Shown here piece after piece: positions 438-21,179 of a stretch of 21,179 nt of DNA (position 1 is its first letter; each line of letters begins with the position of its first letter). The DNA is taken from positions 1-21,179 of the IMG/VR virus record IMGVR_UViG_3300046002_005790. One strand, written 5' to 3'. The notes below the pieces were generated by a model that ran no database searches, was not told the origin of the DNA, and saw only the letters and a program-made list of their open reading frames with translations. Source of the DNA: a virus. The position numbers were made by a program, and so were the translations under genes.

Positions 438-3400
438 ATGAGCGAGAATATCTACGATATCCTAGCTAAGTTTCCAAAGGACATGCCAACAAGTTCTATG
501 GAACCTGAACCTCTATACGAAAACGTAGATCCTCGTAACGACTTACTAGAAGATGTCCGTAAATTAGAAGAAAAATTCTACAAGTATAAAGACACTCCTC
601 AAGTTTCAACTGACAAAACCGATGACTCGTCAGATTTCAAGATAGCCAAAGCCAAGAGAGAATTACAGTTAGCCATGGCAGAATATCCTGAAGCTAGTAG
701 CCCCACAGAAGCATTAGTGGCACGTATGGGGGATCAGGCCGAAGAAACCAAACGAGTAGTTGATACAGCCAAAACAACCATAGCTAAACAGCAACAAGAT
801 ATTGCTCGAGCAGCACAGGCAGTTAATGATGCTAATGCTCGATATGATGCTCAAGAAAAACGTTTTCAAGACTTTACTAAACAGGTAGCAGCCAGCGAAT
901 TAGATGTCAAACAACAGGCTCAGGCCGCATTAGCATTTTCTCAACAGCCACAAGCAGCACCACAAGATATTATTGCACAAACACAGGCTCAGGTTCAGGC
1001 TCCAGCACCTGTAGCTACTACACCAGAACCAGAAGAACCAGATCAAACACCAATTGCCAAACCAGTGCAGACCAGACCAGCAACTGCTCCTACACCAGCT
1101 GCTAATGTAGTCGATATTGATGCGGCAAGAAAAGCCAAAGAAGCCGAAGTAGAAAAAGAAAGATTAGCAAAACTTGCCACTGCAAACATCGATAATCCAC
1201 AAATTGATTGGGATGATCAAAAGAAGGTTGAGAAGGTTGCTGAAGCTCAAGAAGCGGCCAATGATGTTGGTATAGCTAGAAAAAATTGGGAAATACTCAG
1301 TAATGCTAGATTAAATCCACAACCATTGATTAAATTAGAATTTGGTGATAATCCACCAGTACATTTACAGCCATTAGATGTTGAAGCCCTTTATCGTTAC
1401 TTAATAGGTAAAAGCACAAGATACCTTGGTCAGAAAAATCAACGGTTAGACAACGATTTCTTAAAAAATCTAATAAAATCTAATCTAAATGACTACAAGA
1501 CTGTTAACTATCTTTTAAAAACGAGTGAAGTTAGTAAATTAAGGACTGCTATAAAACGAGCACAGACTCTAGCACAAAAAGCCAAGCAAACTAACATCGA
1601 TTACAATGCACCAAAACAAGCACAATCAGCTCAGACCCCCGCTCAACAGCCGCAACAAACCCAACAACCGGGGTTAAAGGGCACAGATTATTATAAATAT
1701 ATGACAACACCACGGCAACGTGATTTATTTAGGACCGACGATATGCAAGAAAATGTTAACAAACTAGCAACAAGTCTGATGGAAAGATTTGCAAAATTCA
1801 GTGAAGATACAAAACCAGACTTTTTAGATCTTGACAAGGATGGCGACACTGAAGAGCCTATGAAATCAGCGGCTAAATCAGCTAAAGATCATGAGCCAGC
1901 TAAGCCAGACAGCGATGCAGTTGCTAAACGCAAACGCCTACAAGCATTAAAAGACAAGCAAGAAGACGAACGTGCCGAGAAAGGTGATTCTGATAGCAAA
2001 TCATCCTCACGTGTTGTTAAAGGTCGTGCTTATGGTGGTGCCGCACAAAAAGATGATGAAGATAAAGATCTCGACGAAAGCGGTCTACAAGCATACTTAG
2101 GTAAAAAGAAATATGGCAAAGAAGGCATGAAAGCACTTCAAAAAGCAGGTCGTGAAGGTGCTAGCAAAGAGAAAATGGCCGTGCTACGTGCTAAACATGA
2201 TAAGATGGATGAAGCATTACCTCCGGGTGTTACACCACCACCAAAATATGTGCCAAGTGGTAATCCTCAACCTAATAAACAAGTTGGAACAAAATATAGC
2301 CCACAAGGAACACCAGTACCTGTTATGGCTCCAAAGAAACCAGGCGAATTAGAAGAAGTAGCACCTCCAGGCGCCAAAGCTGAACGTATGGTTAAAGGTA
2401 TTAAAAAATCTTTAAGCAAAGACGGTCATTTATCTGGTAAAGATAAAGCAATCGCTTATGCTACAACATGGAAAGCACACAAAAAAGGCCAAGTAGAAGA
2501 AGCTACAGGATTTGGTGACAAGATTAAGAATTCTAAAGCAGAATTAAAAAAACACAAAATGGTCAAAGAAGGTCGTAATCCAGAAAGCAGTGAATATACT
2601 TACGAAACTATTGGTCGTATCTTATCAGACGAACAACCAGGGCTAGATGCTAATTCAGAAGCATTTGTTAAAGCAGTCTATGACGAACTAATTGAAATGA
2701 AGTTGACACCAAAAGCGGCTCGTTGGTTAGTACACTATGATGAGGACTTCATCAGTGATTGTGCTACGTCATACAGCCATTTCTGTGACAGCAAAGCCAA
2801 AGAAGCCATGGAATGTGGCTCACCAATGAACAGTTTCGTCAGTGAAGAACCTCTAATAGATGCAGAACACGAGCTAGCAGAAATCGCTAAACTAGCAGGT
2901 CTGACACGTGAAGACTTCAATCCAATGGTACCAGGTGATTCAGCAAGTCCATTGACCTATGCAGGTTGCTCAAAATGCAATGCAGATCCTTGCTGTTGTG
3001 AAGATGAAAAAGCCATGGACGAAGGTATGGGCTGTAGCGAAGATGAACTAAATGAAGCTGCGACACGCAAAGATTTCCGCATGGTAGCTAATCTACTAAA
3101 ATCAATTCCGGATATCGCTAAACGCACAGAGCTAGCTATGTATCATGCAGACATATTCAAGCAACAAAATTCAAGATTTAAAAAGGAAATGTTTTTAGCA
3201 GCTGCAGGTATTGACACTACTCCTATCGAAGATGAAGTAATGGTCGGTGAAGAAGAAGTAGGTGAAGGTAACGAATTCTCAGGCGCATTAGCCAAGGCTC
3301 GCGCTGAAGGAAAAAAGGAGTTTGAAGTGGACGGTAAAAAATATACAGTAAAAGAAGACATCAACATTAACGTTACAGCTAACGGTGAAGAAGATGTAGT

Positions 3401-3698
3401 TAATCTAATCCGCAAGTTAAGTGGTATGCCAGTTGTTGCTATCCAAGCACAACCAGCCGTGGCTGAAGAAATTGTTGCAGAAGAAGGCCCCAAGGAACGT
3501 GATGTAGAATACACAAACTCACCACGTGAAGAAGTGGCAGGAACAGATGCTGCTATCCCCGCTGGTGCTGATTTAAATCGTGCTAAACGTCAGTATAAGA
3601 AAGAATATCCTGGTGACAACCCAATGGCAGTCAAGGAAGCTATTCAAAATATGCTATGGAATGATTATCAGGCAATGATCAACGACGTTAAGGCATAA
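438..3698 (+). CDS. large modular protein, candidate prohead-processed internal protein (polyprotein)
   Basis: This 1086-residue acidic protein is built from separate segments. It has a coiled-coil-like Ala/Gln/Glu-rich region at about 95-175, Pro/Gln/Ala linkers at about 170-235 and 385-415, and a helical domain at about 295-380. An EF-hand-like DLDKDGDTEE sits at 464-473. A Lys-rich module (AYLGKKKYGKEGMKALQKAG) starts near 550, and a second basic module (AERMVKGIKKSLSKDGHLSG) near 647. A helical domain covers about 712-795, a cysteine cluster (CSKC at 844-847, CCC at 852-854) follows, and two more small modules start near 874 and 947. Apparent module edges carry LxE-like sites: LDE at 545-547, MDE at 590-592, LEE at 638-640, VEE at 686-688, VKE at 709-711 and LNE at 871-873. 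Such sites suit a T4 gp21-type prohead protease. No enzymatic domain was recognised. An AAGGG before the ATG can serve as RBS. The processing idea is inference; the ORF itself is certain. Confidence 0.93.
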   Translation: MSENIYDILAKFPKDMPTSSMEPEPLYENVDPRNDLLEDVRKLEEKFYKYKDTPQVSTDKTDDSSDFKIAKAKRELQLAMAEYPEASSPTEALVARMGDQAEETKRVVDTAKTTIAKQQQDIARAAQAVNDANARYDAQEKRFQDFTKQVAASELDVKQQAQAALAFSQQPQAAPQDIIAQTQAQVQAPAPVATTPEPEEPDQTPIAKPVQTRPATAPTPAANVVDIDAARKAKEAEVEKERLAKLATANIDNPQIDWDDQKKVEKVAEAQEAANDVGIARKNWEILSNARLNPQPLIKLEFGDNPPVHLQPLDVEALYRYLIGKSTRYLGQKNQRLDNDFLKNLIKSNLNDYKTVNYLLKTSEVSKLRTAIKRAQTLAQKAKQTNIDYNAPKQAQSAQTPAQQPQQTQQPGLKGTDYYKYMTTPRQRDLFRTDDMQENVNKLATSLMERFAKFSEDTKPDFLDLDKDGDTEEPMKSAAKSAKDHEPAKPDSDAVAKRKRLQALKDKQEDERAEKGDSDSKSSSRVVKGRAYGGAAQKDDEDKDLDESGLQAYLGKKKYGKEGMKALQKAGREGASKEKMAVLRAKHDKMDEALPPGVTPPPKYVPSGNPQPNKQVGTKYSPQGTPVPVMAPKKPGELEEVAPPGAKAERMVKGIKKSLSKDGHLSGKDKAIAYATTWKAHKKGQVEEATGFGDKIKNSKAELKKHKMVKEGRNPESSEYTYETIGRILSDEQPGLDANSEAFVKAVYDELIEMKLTPKAARWLVHYDEDFISDCATSYSHFCDSKAKEAMECGSPMNSFVSEEPLIDAEHELAEIAKLAGLTREDFNPMVPGDSASPLTYAGCSKCNADPCCCEDEKAMDEGMGCSEDELNEAATRKDFRMVANLLKSIPDIAKRTELAMYHADIFKQQNSRFKKEMFLAAAGIDTTPIEDEVMVGEEEVGEGNEFSGALAKARAEGKKEFEVDGKKYTVKEDININVTANGEEDVVNLIRKLSGMPVVAIQAQPAVAEEIVAEEGPKERDVEYTNSPREEVAGTDAAIPAGADLNRAKRQYKKEYPGDNPMAVKEAIQNMLWNDYQAMINDVKA

Positions 3699-4933: not shown

Positions 4934-6502
4934 ATGGCAACAGCAAAAGGTACAGACAGCGTTCTAGTAAAGAAGCCTCATACACGTGAGAGCTTTACAG
5001 AAGAACAATTAAGAGAATTCGCAAAGTGCGCAGATCCTGTTACGGGTCCTGAATACTTTATGAGTAACTACTTCTATATACAGCATCCTACCCAAGGACG
5101 TATGTTGTATAAACCATTTGAGTATCAAAAACGCCTAATACATTCATACCATAACTACCGATTCAGCATCTCACTGATGCCTCGGCAAACAGGTAAATCA
5201 ACAAGTGCCGCAGGGTACTTGCTTTGGTACGCGATGTTCGTGCCAGACAGCACTATCCTGATTGCCGCACACAAATACACAGGCTCACAAGAAATCATGC
5301 AACGTATACGCTACGCTTATGAAAGCGTGCCTGACTTTATACGTGCTGGTGCTGTGAGTTACAACAAGGGTAGTATAGACTTTGACAATGGTAGTCGCAT
5401 AGTGAGTGCTACTACAACAGAAAACACTGGTCGAGGTATGAGTATATCATTACTATATGCAGATGAGTTTGCGTTCGTCCGCCCTACCATTGGTCGTGAA
5501 TTTTGGACTTCAATCAGCCCCACACTAGCAACTGGTGGTAAATGTATTATCACTTCAACCCCCAACAGCGATGAAGATCAATTTGCTACCTTATGGAAAG
5601 GCGCTAACAAACAATTTGATGAATTTGGTAATCCCACAGAATTGGGTATTAACGGATTTAAAGCGTTCCGTAGCTATTGGAATGAGCACCCAGATCGTGA
5701 CGAAGCATGGGCAGTACAGACTCGTAGTCAACTAGGTGATGAACGTTTCCGTCGTGAGATGGACTGTGAATTCATCATCTGGGACGAAACATTGATCAAT
5801 CCAGGGCATTTAATTGAAATGTCGGGATTAGATCCTATAGAACGACAAGGACAGGTACGTTGGTATAAGAAGCCAGAATCACAATATACTTATGTAGTAT
5901 CGTTGGATCCTAGTTTAGGCACTGGCGGCGACCCCGCCGGTATACAGGTATTTGAGTTGCCTACTTTTAAACAAGTAGCAGAATGGCAACATAATCGCAC
6001 ACCTATACAACAACAGGTGGGCATACTAACAGAAATTACCAAATATCTAGCTGAAAATGCCAACCCCAATAATGTTTATTACAGTGTAGAAAATAATACC
6101 GTGGGCGAAGCAGCATTGGTCTGTATCAGTGAAATCGGTGAAGAAAATATCAAAGGTATATTTTTAAGTGAGCCTAGAAAAATAGGTGGTGGTAGACGAT
6201 ATCGTAAGGGCTTTAATACTACAAACAGCAGTAAAATATCTGCCTGTGCTAAACTTAAAAATCTAATAGAAAGCAAGCGTATGATGATCGTTAGCCGTCC
6301 ACTAATATCAGAACTTAAAACATTTGTAGCCCACGGTGCTAGCTATGCGGCTAAACCAGGCGAAACAGATGATCTGGTAATGAGTCTTATCCTTATAGTG
6401 CGCATGGCACAGATGCTACAGAGCTTTGACAGCCAACTTGACTATACTATGAAAGACAGCCTAGAAGATATAGTTGAGCCCATGCCGTTCTTCATTAGTT
6501 AG
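4934..6502 (+). CDS. terL: terminase large subunit (T4 gp17 type)
   Basis: This 522-residue DNA-packaging motor has an ATPase domain that powers DNA translocation into the prohead and a nuclease domain that cuts the concatemer. Walker A is PRQTGKS (83-89), Walker B is LLYADEF with Asp177/Glu178, and the coupling motif is TSTPN just after. The C-terminal RNase-H-like nuclease shows VVSLDPSLG with Asp325, YYSVENNTVGEAA with Glu386 and DDLVMSL with Asp479/480, the expected acidic triad. It is shorter than T4 gp17 (610 residues) but has both domains complete. The start is the first ATG after a T4-late-like box and lacks an RBS. Shorter in-frame starts would not reach into the conserved N-terminal region. 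Confidence 0.97.
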   Translation: MATAKGTDSVLVKKPHTRESFTEEQLREFAKCADPVTGPEYFMSNYFYIQHPTQGRMLYKPFEYQKRLIHSYHNYRFSISLMPRQTGKSTSAAGYLLWYAMFVPDSTILIAAHKYTGSQEIMQRIRYAYESVPDFIRAGAVSYNKGSIDFDNGSRIVSATTTENTGRGMSISLLYADEFAFVRPTIGREFWTSISPTLATGGKCIITSTPNSDEDQFATLWKGANKQFDEFGNPTELGINGFKAFRSYWNEHPDRDEAWAVQTRSQLGDERFRREMDCEFIIWDETLINPGHLIEMSGLDPIERQGQVRWYKKPESQYTYVVSLDPSLGTGGDPAGIQVFELPTFKQVAEWQHNRTPIQQQVGILTEITKYLAENANPNNVYYSVENNTVGEAALVCISEIGEENIKGIFLSEPRKIGGGRRYRKGFNTTNSSKISACAKLKNLIESKRMMIVSRPLISELKTFVAHGASYAAKPGETDDLVMSLILIVRMAQMLQSFDSQLDYTMKDSLEDIVEPMPFFIS

Positions 6503-6514: not shown

Positions 6515-8920
6515 ATGAGAGAAATTAACAAAATCGCAGAAGGTCTATTTGAGAAAATCCGTGATAGATTTGAGGATGTTAGCTTGGGTGATGATAAAGC
6601 CAAGGCCACACAAGATCCTGAAAAAGCACGTTTTTTCAATTTTGACTACACTGTAGATGATGAAAATCTTGGTAATGTAACCCTTAGCATCATCGATGAA
6701 ACCAGCCTAAAAGTCTATTTTAGCAAGAATATCAGCGACGATCTAACAGACGAACAGCGCCATGATTGGTACGGCTTTCTCAAAGAACTACGCAGGTTCG
6801 CTAAATCAAACCTATTGAGCTTTGAACCTAGAGATATAACAAGAAGCACATTAAAACATCGAGACCTACAACAGGTTAGCAAAGCAGACAGTACCTACGA
6901 CAAAGATGAAGTCATCAGCGAAAGCCTATATGGTACACGCAAATCTAGCTATGAACGTAAAGGTCCTGTGCGATTAATAGTCCGTCATACTAAAGCACTT
7001 GATGAAATAGAAAATCGCCGTGCCCGCACACACAATATCAACAGCATCTATCTTGAAACACAGGAAGGTGAACGCTTCAAGCTACCAGTTAAAAGCCTTA
7101 GACTAGGTCGTGCTCTGGCACAACATGTCAAACATGGTGGTAGTATGCATGATGACCTAGGTCAGCACATCTGTGAAATGGCAGAAGAATGTGCTAAACT
7201 AAAACCATTCATAAACAACACAAGAAATCGCACATTTGAAGATACAGAAACACAATCAATGGCAGAAGCAGCAGTTGAATATCATGGTCTATTAAACAAC
7301 ACACTAAAACGCATGACTGGTAAGAAAGGGTATCAAAGATGTAAAGAACAATTTGTAGCAACATCAACCTCATATATTCCAGAAATTGATACAGAAGAAA
7401 TGAAACAACGTTTTGAGAAACGAACATTTGACGATCGGTTAGAAGAAGCACTACCTTTGGTACACAAGGCATATAATATGAAAAAAGAAAATAAATTCGC
7501 AGAACAATTTGTCAACTGGGCAGATACCATAGCCGAAGGCACATGGGCAGTTCCTAACACCGACGATGACGTGGATAAACTAATTGAATTATTAAGTAAT
7601 CCTTTACCAGCTGGCGTTGATGGACAAAATGCTACCAACGCACTATATAATCTAATTGGTGATGACAAACTATTTGATAAGATACAAGAAATAGCAAGAA
7701 TAGATCCAGAACACGATGTGGGTGATTTAGTCGCAGATTGGCTACAGGAACATCTACCAAATATCTATCAACAGATTGAAAATGAAATAGGTGATCCGGA
7801 CTACCCAGCAGAACAAGACATCGAAAGTAGTGACATAGATGAAGGCAACACATATGGCTCAAGCAACAGTGGCATAGATGGTGTGGTCTACGAAGAAGAT
7901 AACCAAGAAGACCAATTAGCAAATATTGAAGATATACAATCAGCGATCATACGTAGAATCTTAAACAGCATCGATGATCACAGTGAGTTACTTAAAAAAG
8001 CAGGTCCAGAAGGTATCATGAATGCTGCAAGTGATGTAGCATCATTCCATGCACCAATGGAAGAAATAGGTTCGAGCGATGTTAGTATCATGGTACGCGA
8101 AGTATACCGTGAAGTCGGCGTAGACTATCCAGAAGAAGTAAACGAAGATAAAGAAGAATGTAAATATTGCGGAGGTGATTGTCCAAACGATGAAGAACAC
8201 GCTTGCGATGGCTACTTAGGCGACATTGATGACTTATATAAAGTAACAGAAGAACGAGATATTGATGATAATGAAGAAGTATGTACATACTGTGGTGAAC
8301 CACGCGATGACAAATTTAGTTGCTGTGATGAAAACCATTGGGAAACTAAAAAAGAGTTTGATGACAATATGAATGAAGCTAAAGACACAATCAAATATGA
8401 TCCTAAAACAGGCAAATTAACAGGCTGGGAACACGAAGGTGATTGGGAAAAAACTAAAGGCAAGAAGAAAGATCCTATAGGCAAAATCCATAATCTCAGC
8501 GATAAAGCACGCCGTGAAACAGAAAAGATGAGCAAAGACGAAACATTAGAAGAAGCATTTGACCGATTAGTAAATGAAGATGATACATTCACAGAAGATC
8601 AGGTATCAGACAAACTGCAATCATTTATAGGACAAACATTCTATGTACCCGCAGAAGGACAAAAAGGCACAGTAGCAAAAGTAGCAGAGAAGACCCGTTT
8701 CTCAAACAGTTTAGTAGTTGATCTAGCCAACGGTACAACAATAGCAGTACATTTTAAAGATTTAAAACCAGTAGAAGAAACTCCAGGCCCAATTAAACAA
8801 TTATGGCAAAGACTTGTAGCAACAATCACAGGCGGAGCAACACCAAAAATGCAACCAAAATATAGCACACAAGTTCCGGACCCAATGACAGACATTAAAA
8901 ATTTAGCAGGCCTGAAATAA
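6515..8920 (+). CDS. large conserved virion-type protein with capsid-targeting-like leader
   Basis: This 801-residue acidic protein is of unknown function. The leader MREINKIAE has an IxE site at 7-9 followed by Gly. A folded N-terminal domain (about 20-135) precedes an ISE site (134-136). The next, probably conserved, domain starts SLYGTRKSSYERKGPVRLIV and continues to about 245. More LxE-like sites are LEE at 309-311, IDE at 441-443 and LEE at 678-680. Two cysteine knuckles suggest zinc binding: C549xxC552 with C556 and C564, and C590xxC593 with C603, C604 and possibly H608. The C-terminus ends with DIKNLAGLK, a motif found in neighbouring proteins. Gene order after terminase and the strong terminator behind it suggest a late structural or packaged protein. 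No catalytic motif was recognised. Confidence 0.9.
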   Translation: MREINKIAEGLFEKIRDRFEDVSLGDDKAKATQDPEKARFFNFDYTVDDENLGNVTLSIIDETSLKVYFSKNISDDLTDEQRHDWYGFLKELRRFAKSNLLSFEPRDITRSTLKHRDLQQVSKADSTYDKDEVISESLYGTRKSSYERKGPVRLIVRHTKALDEIENRRARTHNINSIYLETQEGERFKLPVKSLRLGRALAQHVKHGGSMHDDLGQHICEMAEECAKLKPFINNTRNRTFEDTETQSMAEAAVEYHGLLNNTLKRMTGKKGYQRCKEQFVATSTSYIPEIDTEEMKQRFEKRTFDDRLEEALPLVHKAYNMKKENKFAEQFVNWADTIAEGTWAVPNTDDDVDKLIELLSNPLPAGVDGQNATNALYNLIGDDKLFDKIQEIARIDPEHDVGDLVADWLQEHLPNIYQQIENEIGDPDYPAEQDIESSDIDEGNTYGSSNSGIDGVVYEEDNQEDQLANIEDIQSAIIRRILNSIDDHSELLKKAGPEGIMNAASDVASFHAPMEEIGSSDVSIMVREVYREVGVDYPEEVNEDKEECKYCGGDCPNDEEHACDGYLGDIDDLYKVTEERDIDDNEEVCTYCGEPRDDKFSCCDENHWETKKEFDDNMNEAKDTIKYDPKTGKLTGWEHEGDWEKTKGKKKDPIGKIHNLSDKARRETEKMSKDETLEEAFDRLVNEDDTFTEDQVSDKLQSFIGQTFYVPAEGQKGTVAKVAEKTRFSNSLVVDLANGTTIAVHFKDLKPVEETPGPIKQLWQRLVATITGGATPKMQPKYSTQVPDPMTDIKNLAGLK

Positions 8921-13051: not shown

Positions 13052-13293
13052 GTATTGAGTTAGATGCATTAGGCGAAGTTTGGTTGACTTGTAAGGAGTA
13101 TATCGCGCCTAAAGACCGCCAGGCGGCAGCTGATCATGTGTTGGCTATAGTAGCAGATCATAACATCGTCGAGCGCGAATTAAAAGCGTTCGGTGGCACC
13201 GACAGCTATCTCAAACGTGCATTGAAAGAATACCTAGGTGAAGATGAAGAAGAATCTGCGTATGATGACGATGATGGAGATGATGACTACTAA
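13048..13293 (+). CDS. small acidic protein coupled to uvsX
   Basis: This 81-residue protein overlaps the uvsX stop (ATGA) and has a strong GAGGAG ribosome binding site. It has a helical N-terminal region (EVWLTCKEYIAPKDRQAAAD, then SYLKRALKEYLG) and a very acidic end made almost wholly of Asp and Glu. Gene placement suggests a replication or recombination accessory role. I do not recognise a T4 counterpart; it does not look like gp33 or gp59. Confidence 0.88.
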   Translation: MSIELDALGEVWLTCKEYIAPKDRQAAADHVLAIVADHNIVERELKAFGGTDSYLKRALKEYLGEDEEESAYDDDDGDDDY

Positions 13294-14540
13294 TGTCTGG
13301 AAAAAAGTATTTTCCAATAAAAACAGCTACCGCTTGTCAACTTAAATGGGCCTGGAGCACTATATATTTAAATAGTGGCATCACTGGCAGTTGTCATAGA
13401 ACTGCGTATTCAGAGATCACCCCTGAAAATTTTAGCAATTTTCATAATACACCTTTGAAACTTAGTAATCGGCAACAAATGTTGCAGGGAAATTGGCCTA
13501 AGGAAAGCTGTGGGTACTGTCGAAAAATTGAAGAAATAGGAGGAGTAAGTGACAGAATCAGACATCTATCTATACCAAATTTATCCCCAACTGAACTTGA
13601 AATAAATTCTGAAGCAACTATAGTATCTCCAACGATACTTGAAGTGTATTTTAATAATGCCTGTAATTTAGGGTGTTTATATTGTCCCTCAGATGGATCA
13701 TTGAGTTCTACTATTGAGTCCGAAAATAAAAAATTTGGCGAATTTTCACAGAAAGGAGTAATATTAACCAATGGTACTAATCATTTTAAAGATCTAATGC
13801 CATATTTTTGGCAATGGATGGAAACAGGATTCTCTACGTTAAAACGCTTGCATATATTAGGTGGAGAACCTTTATATCAGAAAGAATTTGATAAGTTATT
13901 AGATATGATAGAAAAGAATCCCAATCCAGAATGCGAGCTTAATATAGTGACTAATCTAATGGTTCCAAAAAAAACTTTAGAGAACTTTATTTTAAAATTT
14001 AAACAGTTATTAACCAATAGAAAGTTAAAAAGAATAGATATAACCTGTAGCATTGACTGTTGGGGAGCCGAACAGGAATACGCCAGATGGGGGATAAAAC
14101 TTGATCAATGGGAAGAAAACTTTAACTTACTTTTAGAAACCAAATGGATCCATTTAAATATAAATCAGACTATATCAGTATTGACTATAAAAACTATGCC
14201 AGAATTGTTATTAAAATTATCCAGCTGGCGTAAAAACAGACACGTTGGACATTGGTTTAGCGGAGTTACTCCTGGTCCGTCATATATGAAAGGTGAAATA
14301 TTTGGTAAAGAGTTTGCGCAAGATGCAAAAAAAATATTTTCCTTGCTTCCTAGAGATTCTGAAGAAAATATATTAGCATATGAATATATGGAAGGTATTT
14401 TAAATCAGATATTACAGTCAGAGCAAAATAATGAAGAAATTGCAAATCTAATTATATTTTTAAATGAAAAAGATCGTAGAAGAGGAACCAATTGGAGAAC
14501 TGTATTTCCATGGTTAGGAAGGTATGAACATGTGGTATAG
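13293..14540 (+). CDS. radical SAM (twitch-type) protein
   Basis: This 415-residue protein has the radical SAM cluster motif CNLGCLYC with Cys124, Cys128 and Cys131, which binds a 4Fe-4S cluster and SAM, and the SAM-contacting GGEP at 190-193. An N-terminal region with TGSCHRTAYSEI and CGYCRKIEE carries more cysteines that could bind an auxiliary cluster. Similar proteins in phage genomes are annotated as twitch-domain radical SAM proteins; no substrate is known to me. The ATG overlaps the previous TAA by one base, and GGAG lies about 12 bases upstream. The gene is more AT-rich than its uvsX and uvsY neighbours, which suggests it was inserted into the recombination operon. Confidence 0.88.
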   Translation: MSGKKYFPIKTATACQLKWAWSTIYLNSGITGSCHRTAYSEITPENFSNFHNTPLKLSNRQQMLQGNWPKESCGYCRKIEEIGGVSDRIRHLSIPNLSPTELEINSEATIVSPTILEVYFNNACNLGCLYCPSDGSLSSTIESENKKFGEFSQKGVILTNGTNHFKDLMPYFWQWMETGFSTLKRLHILGGEPLYQKEFDKLLDMIEKNPNPECELNIVTNLMVPKKTLENFILKFKQLLTNRKLKRIDITCSIDCWGAEQEYARWGIKLDQWEENFNLLLETKWIHLNINQTISVLTIKTMPELLLKLSSWRKNRHVGHWFSGVTPGPSYMKGEIFGKEFAQDAKKIFSLLPRDSEENILAYEYMEGILNQILQSEQNNEEIANLIIFLNEKDRRRGTNWRTVFPWLGRYEHVV

Positions 14541-14985: not shown

Positions 14986-15886
14986 ACATAGTTTAAGTAT
15001 ATTAGAAACTATACGACAATATGATACGTTCTTAGAAAGCCTGCGACATGTAGCGGATCTAGGTTGCGGTACAGGTGAAGACGTCCATTGGTGGGCTACC
15101 TTAGAAAATTATAATGACCCACCAGAACCTTATAATTTTAATTGTTTTGCTGTTGACAATAATGCTGATCGTCTGAGACAAGTCCCAGATCTAAAAAATA
15201 TTCATAAAGTACATGACATTTATGATAGACAATTCTTATTTCCTGTTAGTATAGACCTCATATGGGCTCACGATAGTTTACAATATAGTATAAATCCATT
15301 AGAAACTCTTCGCATGTGGAATAGCTATATGACTGTTAATGGCATGTTGTTGCTTAGTGTACCTCAACATACTGGTATTGAATATAATAAACATTATAGC
15401 AGAGGCTATAGCGGATGTTATTTTCATTACAATCCAATTAATTTAATTTATATGCTAGCCGTCAATGGGTTTGACTGTCGCGATGCATATTTACTAAAGA
15501 AATTCCAAGATCCGTGGATCAACATGGCAGTATATAAAACAGACATAGCACCAATGGATCCATTAACAACTACATGGTTTGATCTGGCAGATAAAAATCT
15601 ATTACATCCTACAATAGTAGATAGTGTAAATGCTAATGGATTTCTTAAACAAGAAGAAATCTGCATGCCGTGGTTAGACAAAGAATTGTATTTTATTGAT
15701 TATCAGAGTCAACGTATGGAATTTCCCCCAGCTACAGAAACGACAGGAACATTGAATGAAACTACACGTTCTAATAAAACAACAGTTGCGCAAGCCGCAC
15801 CTAAATCAAAAGAAACTCCGGTACTTAAACCATTAACGATTAAGAGCACTCCACCTACCAGAAAGAGTTATAAACATGGTAAATAG
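14978..15886 (+). CDS. SAM-dependent methyltransferase (class I)
   Basis: This protein of about 302 residues has a Rossmann methyltransferase fold. Motif I is ADLGCGTGED (about residues 27-36), followed by an acidic strand end (FAVDNN), motif IV-like DLIWAHDSLQY and a LLLSVPQ strand. A C-terminal Ser/Thr/Pro-rich basic tail (about 255-302) is probably disordered. The start is uncertain: GGAGG ends directly before ATG 14969 but nine bases before an in-frame TTG at 14978, so TTG is more plausible for translation. The substrate is unknown. It follows uvsY with overlap and itself overlaps the nucleotidyltransferase gene. Its by-product SAH could be consumed by the hydrolase encoded at the end of the window. 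Confidence 0.87.
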   Translation: MARHSLSILETIRQYDTFLESLRHVADLGCGTGEDVHWWATLENYNDPPEPYNFNCFAVDNNADRLRQVPDLKNIHKVHDIYDRQFLFPVSIDLIWAHDSLQYSINPLETLRMWNSYMTVNGMLLLSVPQHTGIEYNKHYSRGYSGCYFHYNPINLIYMLAVNGFDCRDAYLLKKFQDPWINMAVYKTDIAPMDPLTTTWFDLADKNLLHPTIVDSVNANGFLKQEEICMPWLDKELYFIDYQSQRMEFPPATETTGTLNETTRSNKTTVAQAAPKSKETPVLKPLTIKSTPPTRKSYKHGK

Positions 15887-16616
15887 AGTGGTCCTATGCA
15901 CGGGCGGATTTGACCCTTTACACTCAGGACACATAGAATACTTCCGTGCGGCCAAACGTCTGGGTGACGTCCTAGTAGTTGGAGTTAATAGCGATAGTTG
16001 GCTCAGACGCAAGAAAGGTCGCGAGTTCATGCCCAGCTATGAGCGTGTTCAGATCATTGAAAATCTCCGTATGGTAGATCATTGTATATTGTTTAATGAC
16101 ACAGAAGATCATGCTATAGAAGCCATACGTAACGTCAAGATCATGTATCCTAATAGCGAAATCATATTTGCCAACGGTGGTGATCGCACAGCAGAAAATA
16201 TACCGGAGATGTCAGAATCTAATGTCAAATTTGTGTTTGGGGTTGGCGGCATAGACAAAAAGAATTCAAGTAGTTGGATCTTAGAAGAATGGAAAGCACC
16301 CAAGACAGATCGTCCTTGGGGTTACTACCGTATATTACACGAAGTGCTGGGTACTAAGGTTAAAGAGCTTACTATTAATCCAGGACAAACCCTGACCATG
16401 CAACGGCATTTTGACCGCAGCGAACATTGGCATGTCGCTGAAGGACATTGCCAGGTTGAACTTGAGGATGAATCTGTCCCCCTACATCAACACGAGCACT
16501 ATCACATACTACCAGAAACATGGCACAGACTACACAATCCCTTTGCAAAACCCTGTAAAATAGTAGAAATCCAGTATGGTATTGACTGCACTGAACAAGA
16601 TATAGAACGCAGATAA
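15876..16616 (+). CDS. fusion of HxGH nucleotidyltransferase and phosphomannose-isomerase-type cupin
   Basis: This 246-residue protein has two domains. Residues 1-140 are a cytidylyl/adenylyltransferase-type domain: CTGGFDPLHSGHIEYF carries the HxGH signature at 16-19, VVGVNSD is the second strand, and SSSWILEEW sits at the place of the C-terminal nucleotide-binding motif. Residues 146-246 match the cupin of type II mannose-6-phosphate isomerases: RPWGYYRIL, then ITV-like LTINPGQTLTMQRHFDRSEH (metal-site region, His178, Glu183, His184) and a final VEIQYG strand with EQDIERR. One usual metal-site His is Asp180. Bacterial ManC joins the same cupin to a different nucleotidyltransferase fold. A role in sugar-nucleotide synthesis for glycan or LPS decoration is inferred. 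The ATG lies inside the preceding gene. Confidence 0.88.
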   Translation: MVNRVVLCTGGFDPLHSGHIEYFRAAKRLGDVLVVGVNSDSWLRRKKGREFMPSYERVQIIENLRMVDHCILFNDTEDHAIEAIRNVKIMYPNSEIIFANGGDRTAENIPEMSESNVKFVFGVGGIDKKNSSSWILEEWKAPKTDRPWGYYRILHEVLGTKVKELTINPGQTLTMQRHFDRSEHWHVAEGHCQVELEDESVPLHQHEHYHILPETWHRLHNPFAKPCKIVEIQYGIDCTEQDIERR

Positions 16617-18308: not shown

Positions 18309-19355
18309 ATGACGAAGAAATCTATTCATTTAGCATTCTTAAGTGTTTATGCCCTTATTACTTTAGGGTTAATAACTTATACACAATTGGCTTGGAATGT
18401 TATATTTGTTTTACTAGCATTACCGGTGTTATATCTATTATTTGAAACAAAAATATACACTAATGACAGCAAAGTAAAAATAGCACAGGCTTTTGCATAC
18501 CTAGGCAGTCTGGTGACCTTGATATTTGCGTGGAATCTCAAATTATTTTTATTTGCTTTGTTTTGTGGTTGGTTGCTTTTTGGCATAGGTGTTAGTATAT
18601 GTCTACATAAATGGGCTAGTCATAGAACTTTTGCACCACGAAATCAATTTTGGAAAACTATAATTTTATGGTTTGGTTCTATGTGTACCCTAGGAAGTAC
18701 TATTAGCTGGGCCGCAGGACATCGAGAACACCATAGATTTACGGACAAACAAGGTGATCCGCATAGTCCATCTGGAAGTCTGTGGCACAAGATCAAAGTT
18801 TATTTTTACTATTTTCCTACTTATCCAATCAGTCCAATGCTGATCAAAGACCTTACTATTGATACTGGGCATAAATGGTTCCATAAACACTATTACAAGG
18901 TAATCTACAGCTATGCGTTGGGACTATGTTTAATTGATCCGATATACGCAGGTTATTTTTATTGTTTGCCGGTATTATATGTATTCACGGGCATAAGCTG
19001 GGTAACCGTGATTGCACACTTGCCATATTCGGGACGTTGGGGATATCGAAGTGATACCTATAGGATTTATAAAAGTAATGACTACACGTATAACAGTCAT
19101 GTATGGCAGTTCCTATTAATGGGAGAAGGTTATCATAATACGCATCATACCTGTCCTTGGCTTTGGAACAATGCTATATTACCCAAGGAATTCGACATAT
19201 CGGGGCAAATCATCAAAAGGATCGGTCACGTAAATGATCGTCCTCCTTTACCTTTTGATAGTATCCGTAAAGGGCAAGAAATGTTTAATGAAATAGCCCA
19301 AGTAACTGAAAAAAATAAAGTTAACAATCGTCTGGAAGTGCCGAATCCAACATGA
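18309..19355 (+). CDS. membrane fatty acid desaturase (acyl-CoA/acyl-lipid delta-9 type)
   Basis: This 348-residue integral-membrane di-iron enzyme introduces a double bond into fatty acyl chains. The three histidine boxes are complete: HKWASH (100-105), HREHH (138-142) and HNTHH (276-280). Hydrophobic segments lie at about 8-45, 58-95, 113-133 and 197-235, the arrangement of OLE1/Des9-type enzymes. A FTDKQGDPHSP motif after box 2 is characteristic. It overlaps the next gene by ATGA. Regulation is unclear; only a weak AGAG precedes the ATG. In a phage it may tune host membrane fluidity during infection, which is inference. The gene is AT-rich like the other accessory genes. Confidence 0.95.
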   Translation: MTKKSIHLAFLSVYALITLGLITYTQLAWNVIFVLLALPVLYLLFETKIYTNDSKVKIAQAFAYLGSLVTLIFAWNLKLFLFALFCGWLLFGIGVSICLHKWASHRTFAPRNQFWKTIILWFGSMCTLGSTISWAAGHREHHRFTDKQGDPHSPSGSLWHKIKVYFYYFPTYPISPMLIKDLTIDTGHKWFHKHYYKVIYSYALGLCLIDPIYAGYFYCLPVLYVFTGISWVTVIAHLPYSGRWGYRSDTYRIYKSNDYTYNSHVWQFLLMGEGYHNTHHTCPWLWNNAILPKEFDISGQIIKRIGHVNDRPPLPFDSIRKGQEMFNEIAQVTEKNKVNNRLEVPNPT

Positions 19356-20051: not shown

Positions 20052-20456
20052 ATGGAAAAGAAATTATGGGATAGTATCGATAGCTCAATACTAAAGTCAT
20101 TACCTAATGCCGCACGTGGATATGAGCAACGTATCAATATCCCAGAATTTACATTCTTAGGCGGTGCTAATCAACCAGACTTTGGTGATGTTACTATTTG
20201 GTTCTATGGCAAAGATAAGACTATTGAATTAAAAAGTCTTAAGCAATACATATTCCAATACCGCGACACACGTTTGAGTTACGAGCGAGCATTAGATGTT
20301 ATGTATAAAGATCTTAAAGCAGTGTATGAACCAGATCGTATTCGTATAGAAATTGAATACCGCCCACGTGGAGGTATAAGTAGTAGAATGACCGTAGACA
20401 GCGATTGGGGCCATTTGGGTGGCACTGATCAACTTTGGCAACATCACAAGGATTAA
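20052..20456 (+). CDS. QueF-fold protein lacking the catalytic cysteine
   Basis: This 134-residue protein aligns with type I QueF, the NADPH-dependent preQ0 reductase of queuosine synthesis. It shares [15 protein letters not shown] (31-45) with the QueF PEFTSLCPxxxQPDFA region, [14 protein letters not shown] (59-72) with the QueF NADPH-binding ExKSLK motif, and PRGGIS (105-110). The nucleophile Cys55 (B. subtilis numbering) falls at Gly37, and the whole protein has no cysteine. Catalytic Asp is kept as Asp43 and the active-site Glu as Glu78, while the neighbouring His is Tyr77. The thioimide intermediate of QueF therefore cannot form. AAGGA lies five bases before the ATG. The gene lies one base from the acyltransferase stop and one base from the SAH hydrolase start. 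Confidence 0.87.
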
Positions 20457-20457
20457 T

Positions 20458-21179
20458 ATGGATTATAAAGTAAAAGACATTACATTGGCCGCCTGGGGTC
20501 ATAAAGAAATCGCTATTGCTGAAACAGAGATGCCAGGATTAATGGCAGTCAAAGCAGAATATTTAGAAGCCCAACCACTTAAAGGTGCACGTATTGCTGG
20601 GTCATTGCATATGACCATTCAAACAGCAGTATTAGTCGAAACATTAATAGCTTTAGGTGCTGAAGTGCGTTGGTCAAGTTGCAACATATTTTCAACACAG
20701 GATCACGCCGCCGCCGCACTAGCTGATCAAGGTATACCTGTATTTGCTTGGAAAGGTGAAACAGAAGAAGAATACTGGTGGTGCATTGAACAGACAGTTA
20801 GTGGTCCAGACGATTGGCAGCCAAACATGTTACTTGATGATGGTCATGACCTTACATGGTATATCCATGAAAAACATCCGCATCTATTAGAAGGAATCCG
20901 TGGAGTAACAGAAGAAACAACAACTGGTATCCATAAAATCAATGAAGCAATGGCCAAGGGTGAATTCAAGTTACGTGCTATAAATGTTAATGACAGCGTG
21001 ACCAAAGCTAAATTTGATAACTTATATGGTTGTCGCGAGTCATTAGTTGATGGTATTAAACGTGCCACTGACGTGATGATCGCAGGTAAGGTAGCAGTGG
21101 TAGCAGGCTTTGGTGATGTAGGTAAAGGGTCAGCGGCCGCACTTCGCGCACTATCAGCACAGGTTTGGGTAACTGAGAT
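20458..21179 (+). CDS. ahcY: S-adenosylhomocysteine hydrolase, N-terminal part (cut by window end)
   Basis: The first 240 residues of an enzyme that splits S-adenosylhomocysteine into adenosine and homocysteine and so removes the product inhibitor of methyltransferases. Highly conserved elements are [15 protein letters not shown]-like sequence near 50 (here with VLVETL), [55 protein letters not shown] and the NAD-binding GFGDVGKG (217-224). In the usual DDGGDLT motif the second Gly is His (DDGHDLT). The frame stays open to the last base, so truncation is due to the window. AAGGA lies five bases before the ATG, one base after the QueF-like stop. A phage copy is unusual and suggests heavy SAM use in infection. 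Confidence 0.96.

Follow-up and report, generated by a model that had tools for sequence, protein, structure and literature searches.

Does the 1086-aa protein encoded 5' of a T4-type terminase gene act as one protein, or is it a chain made to be cut into many? The window analyzed here is a 21-kb fragment (21,179 nucleotides) of an uncultured virus, which carries genes for a T4-type terminase large subunit, a gp32-like protein, and a RecA/UvsX-like protein, as well as several accessory genes. A first-pass annotation of this DNA had read the 1086-aa protein as a polyprotein cut at six LxE-type triplets lying between modules. The genes placed in the window are the following.

2-436, + strand: upstream gene, 3' part only; complete in L001:5394-5996, where it starts with MKNFLKYLSE|V, a capsid-targeting sequence like that of T4 IPIII
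438-3698, + strand: putative cassette polyprotein of 1086 aa; open frame in the conserved slot 5' of the terminase large subunit
4934-6502, + strand: terminase large subunit (gp17)
6515-8920, + strand: second modular virion-type protein, 801 aa; N-terminus in PHROG 13484 ('virion structural protein'); homologues have its C-terminal segments in another order
13293-14540: radical SAM protein
15876-16616: cytidylyltransferase-cupin fusion
18309-19355: fatty acid desaturase
20419-21177: S-adenosylhomocysteine hydrolase, truncated where the window ends

The slot between the tail genes and the terminase is conserved when the loci of the relatives are compared. It runs from the tail sheath through a 205-aa tail-tube-like gene, several small genes, and a gene of 200 aa to the cassette gene, 3' of which lie small genes, the terminase, and the 801-aa protein. 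A cassette protein fills this slot in most other contigs recovered along with the 1086-aa gene, and an upstream gene with a MKNFLKYLSE|V-type start is kept in the matching slot of many loci. The tail sheath and the tail-tube-like gene upstream would suit a tail or neck component rather than a head protein, but this is very improbable, given that the terminase lies downstream, that adjoining genes have capsid-targeting-like N-termini, and that in the cyanophage P-HM2 the gene carrying one of the cassettes (cassette B, below) sits between gp16 and gp17. As for the 801-aa protein, its segments 462-549 and 615-687 are swapped in L011 and it holds 29 hydrophobic-x-Glu triplets vs 19 expected; this protein, too, appears to be such a polyprotein.

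The whole 1086-aa protein has no Pfam or NCBIfam domain, and matches only weak PHROGs to which no function is assigned; neither an embedded peptidase nor any other enzymatic domain was detected with Pfam and NCBIfam. AlphaFold2 models the whole chain at low confidence (mean pLDDT 51.7, pTM 0.23), which suggests short helices with coil between them. Comparison with homologues divides the chain as follows, the recurring units (cassettes) being letter-coded.

438-1805, + strand: N-terminal region, residues 1-456; conserved start MS-NIYDIL-K, long helices, A/Q/P-rich linkers; one block in full-length homologues
1806-2078, + strand: residues 457-547; begins with cassette C (M1), KPDFLDLDKDG, an EF-hand-like DxDxDG loop
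2070-2078, + strand: putative cut site LDE545-547|S, at a homology border
2079-2213, + strand: cassette A (M2), S548-E592, net +6; of the shuffled cassettes in this protein, the one found most widely
2205-2213, + strand: putative cut site MDE590-592|A, at a homology border
2214-2357, + strand: residues 593-640, Pro-rich spacer of the source phage
2349-2357, + strand: putative cut site LEE638-640|V, at a homology border
2358-2501, + strand: cassette B (M3), V641-E688, net +6; PHROG 30733
2493-2501, + strand: putative cut site VEE686-688|A, at a homology border
2502-2570, + strand: residues 689-711, basic segment missing or replaced in several homologues
2562-2570, + strand: putative cut site VKE709-711|G, with a homology border 2 aa downstream
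2571-3266, + strand: residues 712-943, acidic block with a Cys cluster (GCSKCNADPCCC) and a TRKDF segment; includes LNE871-873
3048-3056, + strand: LNE871-873|A, motif present, border unsupported by shuffling
3258-3266, + strand: putative cut site VGE941-943|G, left border of cassette D
3267-3356, + strand: cassette D (M4), G944-E973 (GNEFSG...YTVKE), with VKE971-973 as right border
3357-3695, + strand: C-terminal part, residues 974-1086 (RDVEYTNSPREEVAG...LNR-K-Y...GDNPM), common to other cassette proteins

The Cys cluster lies in the block ahead of residue 862, and DxDxDG loops occur in cassette C and in the d form. The triplet VKE709-711 has its equivalents in other phages as LAE|S or LEE|S preceding RN-ESS.

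All six proposed triplets are found at the residues assigned to them, and the frame 438-3698 (+ strand) is open over 1086 aa. The accompanying caution, that some LxE would arise by chance, was correct: the protein holds 25 triplets of the form PhixE (Phi being L, I, V, M or F) vs 19.8 +/- 3.7 in shuffles (p 0.105), which is no enrichment, and the claim of cutting therefore rests on placement. The 1086-aa protein has 45 distinct homology-edge positions, of which 17 lay no more than 1 residue from a PhixE cut; in a circular-shift test, shifted sites gave a mean of 3.9 and a maximum of 13. Random placement, the outcome that the first-pass annotation had named against its own reading, was thus not what was found. 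Its assignment of the sites to module borders holds for 547, 592, 640, 688, and 711, which are 0-2 aa from homology edges, and fails for LNE871-873, which has no independent support because its block keeps identical neighbours in all homologues. Outside the original six, VGE941-943 and VKE971-973 are supported and FSE454-456 loosely so, the latter being the left border of residues 457-547, of which LDE547 is the right border. The residue after the cut (P1') is mostly A, G or S at borders, then E, D or K, which bears out the expected small residue, and the expectation of at least two basic pieces is borne out by cassettes A (548-592) and B (641-688), each with net +6 and a pI of about 9.9; both could bind DNA. 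The number of pieces is uncertain, since no homology border supports LNE871-873, and residues 1 to ~450 appear to form a single helical region.

Whether modules are shuffled among homologues, a check that the first-pass annotation had proposed, was examined by alignment. A scan of viral contigs yielded 75 loci. Homologues spanning much or all of the chain are present in about a dozen of these, in addition to the near-identical L001 (L012 holds a 5' fragment only), and about 60 match stretches only, for example 541-594 or 458-689. The C-terminal half consists of small recurring cassettes, with about 50 architectures in 82 proteins, whose order is permuted, with duplication and loss (e.g., C-E-A-d, E-A-d-C, F-A-C-B, A-C-B, and A-B-J). 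The clearest block is S548-E592, which is nearly constant in alignments and whose flanks change completely on both sides: the triplet preceding it is VEE, MDE, VDE, LDE, MKE, LNE, VSE or MEE, and the sequence past it diverges directly after KMDE. Blocks 641-688, 944-973, and KPDFLDLDKDG show the same pattern, and some contigs hold two stretches of the 1086-aa protein in a second gene as well. None of 50,697 phage records matched cassette A; cassette B is also present in cultured cyanophages, one copy being deposited as a 'DUF6321 domain-containing protein'. Cassette E extends to huge metagenomic phages, L260 (735-kb record) and L261 (595-kb record), and follows LIIE|K in L260. A further relative, L263:874-4380, is gene 81 of Mycobacterium phage ScoobyDoobyDoo (1168 aa), three genes 5' of the portal gene; it has many PhixE, and one of its segments is 38% identical to the TRKDF segment of the 1086-aa protein.

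Border composition was counted by taking each unrelated neighbour context once, against a background PhixE rate of 0.026. Cassette A has PhixE at its left border in 24/25 and at its right border in 16/16 independent contexts, and cassette B in 11/12 and 9/12, respectively. The left border of cassette D has PhixE in 14/18 contexts and its right border (944-973) in 5/10; the right border of cassette d has it in 8/9, and the left border of cassette C in 6/12, or 14/21 in a second set. An out-of-sample set of 160 loci was fetched with cassettes E and G, both absent from the 1086-aa protein; part of these loci are contigs already within the earlier 75-locus scan. Here PhixE stands at the left border of cassette E in 40/40 independent contexts (0.13 by chance) and of cassette G in 10/12 embedded contexts (0.05 by chance), and the left borders of B (7/7), A (6/7), and D (8/10) behave alike. 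Past cassette E, a PhixE occurs within 14 residues in 41/51 fused contexts, vs 0.23 by chance. By contrast, PhixE is almost never seen inside the modules (1 in ~1200 interior cells of five families), again as the first-pass annotation would have it. Among all combinations of P3 class and P1 at the homology edges of all proteins in the set, with P2 varied, hydrophobic-x-E ranks first, at 42 vs 4.8 and 41 vs 5.2 expected for two kinds of edge (8-9x); rows within one family are related, and the p-values are indicative rather than exact. Other shuffled proteins of these contigs were tried as negative controls and rejected, as they themselves carry further PhixE-bordered cassettes.

These counts bear on the possibility that the protein is modular and uncut, the triplet at borders being a linker-type signature or a trace of recombination at short codon runs encoding x-E. 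L, I, V, M, and F share T at the second codon position, so that a weak DNA motif (NTN-NNN-GAR) is conceivable, and P3 is looser than in the known gp21 motif. We nevertheless regard this explanation as quite unlikely. P2 is free, yet P3 is hydrophobic and P1 is Glu across unrelated contexts; PhixE is nearly missing within cassettes; and like sites are borne by adjoining genes in their capsid-targeting sequences. Cassette G supplies a fourth point, as it has Met in place of PhixE where it stands at a natural N-terminus. This cassette, present in relatives of the 1086-aa locus, is a member of the DUF3008 small proteins (PF11450), above the Pfam cut-off, but differs from them in being also embedded in long proteins. 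As a stand-alone gene, it begins with MP-AVSKAQQRF at its own Met (72 ORFs); embedded copies come after LDE, IDE, LEE, VSE, VTE or IAE, and then Lys (PhixE|K). The stand-alone start and the fused PhixE fall at nearly equal positions, which matches what cutting apart would require.

A polyprotein cut at these sites would need a protease of matching specificity. T4 gp21 cuts after L/I-X-E, and divides the core proteins gp22, gp67, and gp68 into several pieces (PMC9026906; PMC9958956). No gp21-type protease gene was found within the 21-kb window, which is too short to hold gp21. Of 20 longer records that carry cassette proteins, 7 have both Peptidase_S77 and Gp23, and in the longer records the first part of gp23 includes L[RKM]E|[NAT] shortly ahead of the conserved mature part. 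A start like MKTFKDYLAE|S, which we take to resemble the targeting peptide of T4 IPIII, is found in the gene immediately preceding the cassette gene and often in the one after it. Starts of this type, ending in L/I-x-E|S/A, were counted in 171 of 1118 ORFs of the loci, vs 1.5 after shuffling. In several loci (L030, L045, L055, L057, L072-L075, and others) the genes 3' of the cassette gene start with MK-[TS]-LK-DYL-E|S and then carry further shared cassettes (AEYQGRKVPLGKPMRGDVKKFKVYV; CWDGYKQVG...VPNCVPVKE), with homology edges at PhixE. The N-terminus of the 1086-aa protein itself, MS-NIYDIL-K, is unlike the MK-type targeting start of T4; its relatives have MNNMYDILARINLLE|G. The main weakness of the polyprotein reading lies in P3: among loci L001-L259, it is L or I in 83/88 targeting sites but mostly V, then L and M, at cassette borders. 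The looser P3 could make many of these borders poor substrates; V and M at P3 would either have to be tolerated by the protease or slow the cutting.

Proteomes of cultured cyanophages bear on the fate of the pieces. In Synechococcus phage S-CREM2, ORF111 carries a KPDFLDMDGDG cassette between VKE and LKE (VKE|AAKPDFLDMDGDG..LKE|), and this protein was detected in virions by 8 unique peptides at 19% coverage (PMC10665884). In phage S-SCSM1, for which 45 virion proteins were identified by mass spectrometry (PMC9602691), ORF92 is of the cassette C type and ORF93 consists of cassette G and nothing else; the depositors labeled both as virion proteins, a GenBank entry that presumably reflects the mass spectra. 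S-SCSM1 ORF89 and S-SM2 gp186 have further segments in common, and these segments, too, begin behind a PhixE. These proteomes suggest that at least some pieces may be retained in the head. They also count against the view that the chain is disposable core or scaffold filler, cut by gp21 like T4 gp22, gp67, and gp68 into pieces that exit the prohead and have no task in the virion. Fragments of the T4 core proteins do mostly leave (PMC9026906; PMC9958956), and the N-terminal region here is long and helical, as such a role would allow. However, a filler would hardly need cassettes this strongly conserved across unrelated contexts, related cassette proteins are found in virions, the stand-alone cassette of S-SCSM1 ORF93 is deposited as a virion protein, and the 1086-aa protein has no significant BLASTP match to T4 gp22, gp67 or gp68. 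A role as filler is therefore unlikely.

The gene is probably that of a head polyprotein, which the prohead protease would cut into small pieces and whose cassettes would be exchanged as units from P1' to P1. The cassettes recur and are reordered, PhixE marks their borders and is avoided in their interiors, the gene sits in a conserved slot next to packaging genes, and gp21 is present in longer relatives. The polyprotein reading of the first-pass annotation is thus supported, with the cleavage itself predicted from sequence. In the proposed mechanism, the N-terminal region would carry the polyprotein into the prohead core, where a protease of the gp21 type would cut behind hydrophobic-x-Glu. 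The products would be small pieces of about 30-90 aa, several of them strongly basic and others bearing DxDxDG or Cys-cluster loops that resemble metal-binding sites. Because each cassette spans P1' to P1, gain, loss, duplication, and reordering would leave the cutting scheme intact, and small stand-alone genes could be fused in by placing a PhixE ahead of them. Some pieces at least may remain inside the mature head, possibly to be ejected along with the DNA. More tentatively, T4-like aquatic phages may share a widespread platform in which any small protein could be fused in, enter the head by virtue of one targeting signal, be cut loose, and probably reach the host, and in which cassettes would be swapped like genes.

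If the polyprotein reading is true, it would account for a large class of hypervariable, unannotated proteins from the head loci of very common aquatic phages, and it would be a case, in a DNA virus, of exon-like shuffling of protein units organized around protease sites. It would also predict where exactly dozens of small head proteins have their N- and C-termini, and provide a natural rule for loading several proteins into a phage head from one chain. Cultured cyanophages with existing virion proteomes allow a cheap and immediate check.

Among known systems, T4 gp22, gp67, and gp68 are those with which this protein would share several L/I-x-E cuts per chain, the setting of the prohead core, and small pieces. 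On the other hand, the T4 pieces are not known as recurrent, conserved, reshuffled cassettes, and P3 at the cassette borders includes V and M. The internal head proteins of T4 (IPI, IPII, IPIII, and Alt) are small, often basic, fast-changing head cargo processed by gp21 (PMC9026906). The genes adjoining the 1086-aa locus have IPIII-like targeting sequences, but the T4 proteins are products of separate genes with their own N-terminal targeting peptides, whereas here many units would share one chain. In phiKZ and SPN3US, head and ejection proteins undergo extensive x-x-E cutting by a gp21 relative, with several cuts per propeptide (PMC10052503; PMC9026906). These cuts strip propeptides off one mature protein, and a shuffled multi-unit polyprotein is not described in the cited accounts. 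Polyvalent proteins of phages and conjugative elements are multi-unit chains delivered on invasion, and have been likened to the polyproteins of RNA viruses (PMC5512222); they differ in that their domains are large and enzymatic and often include a peptidase, while the cassettes here are small, with no enzymatic or peptidase domain recognized. No published account of DUF6321 or of cassette shuffling at prohead-protease sites was found; one may exist elsewhere. As far as could be found, the processing of core and internal proteins by prohead proteases is the known part of this arrangement, and the shuffled multi-unit chain is apparently new.
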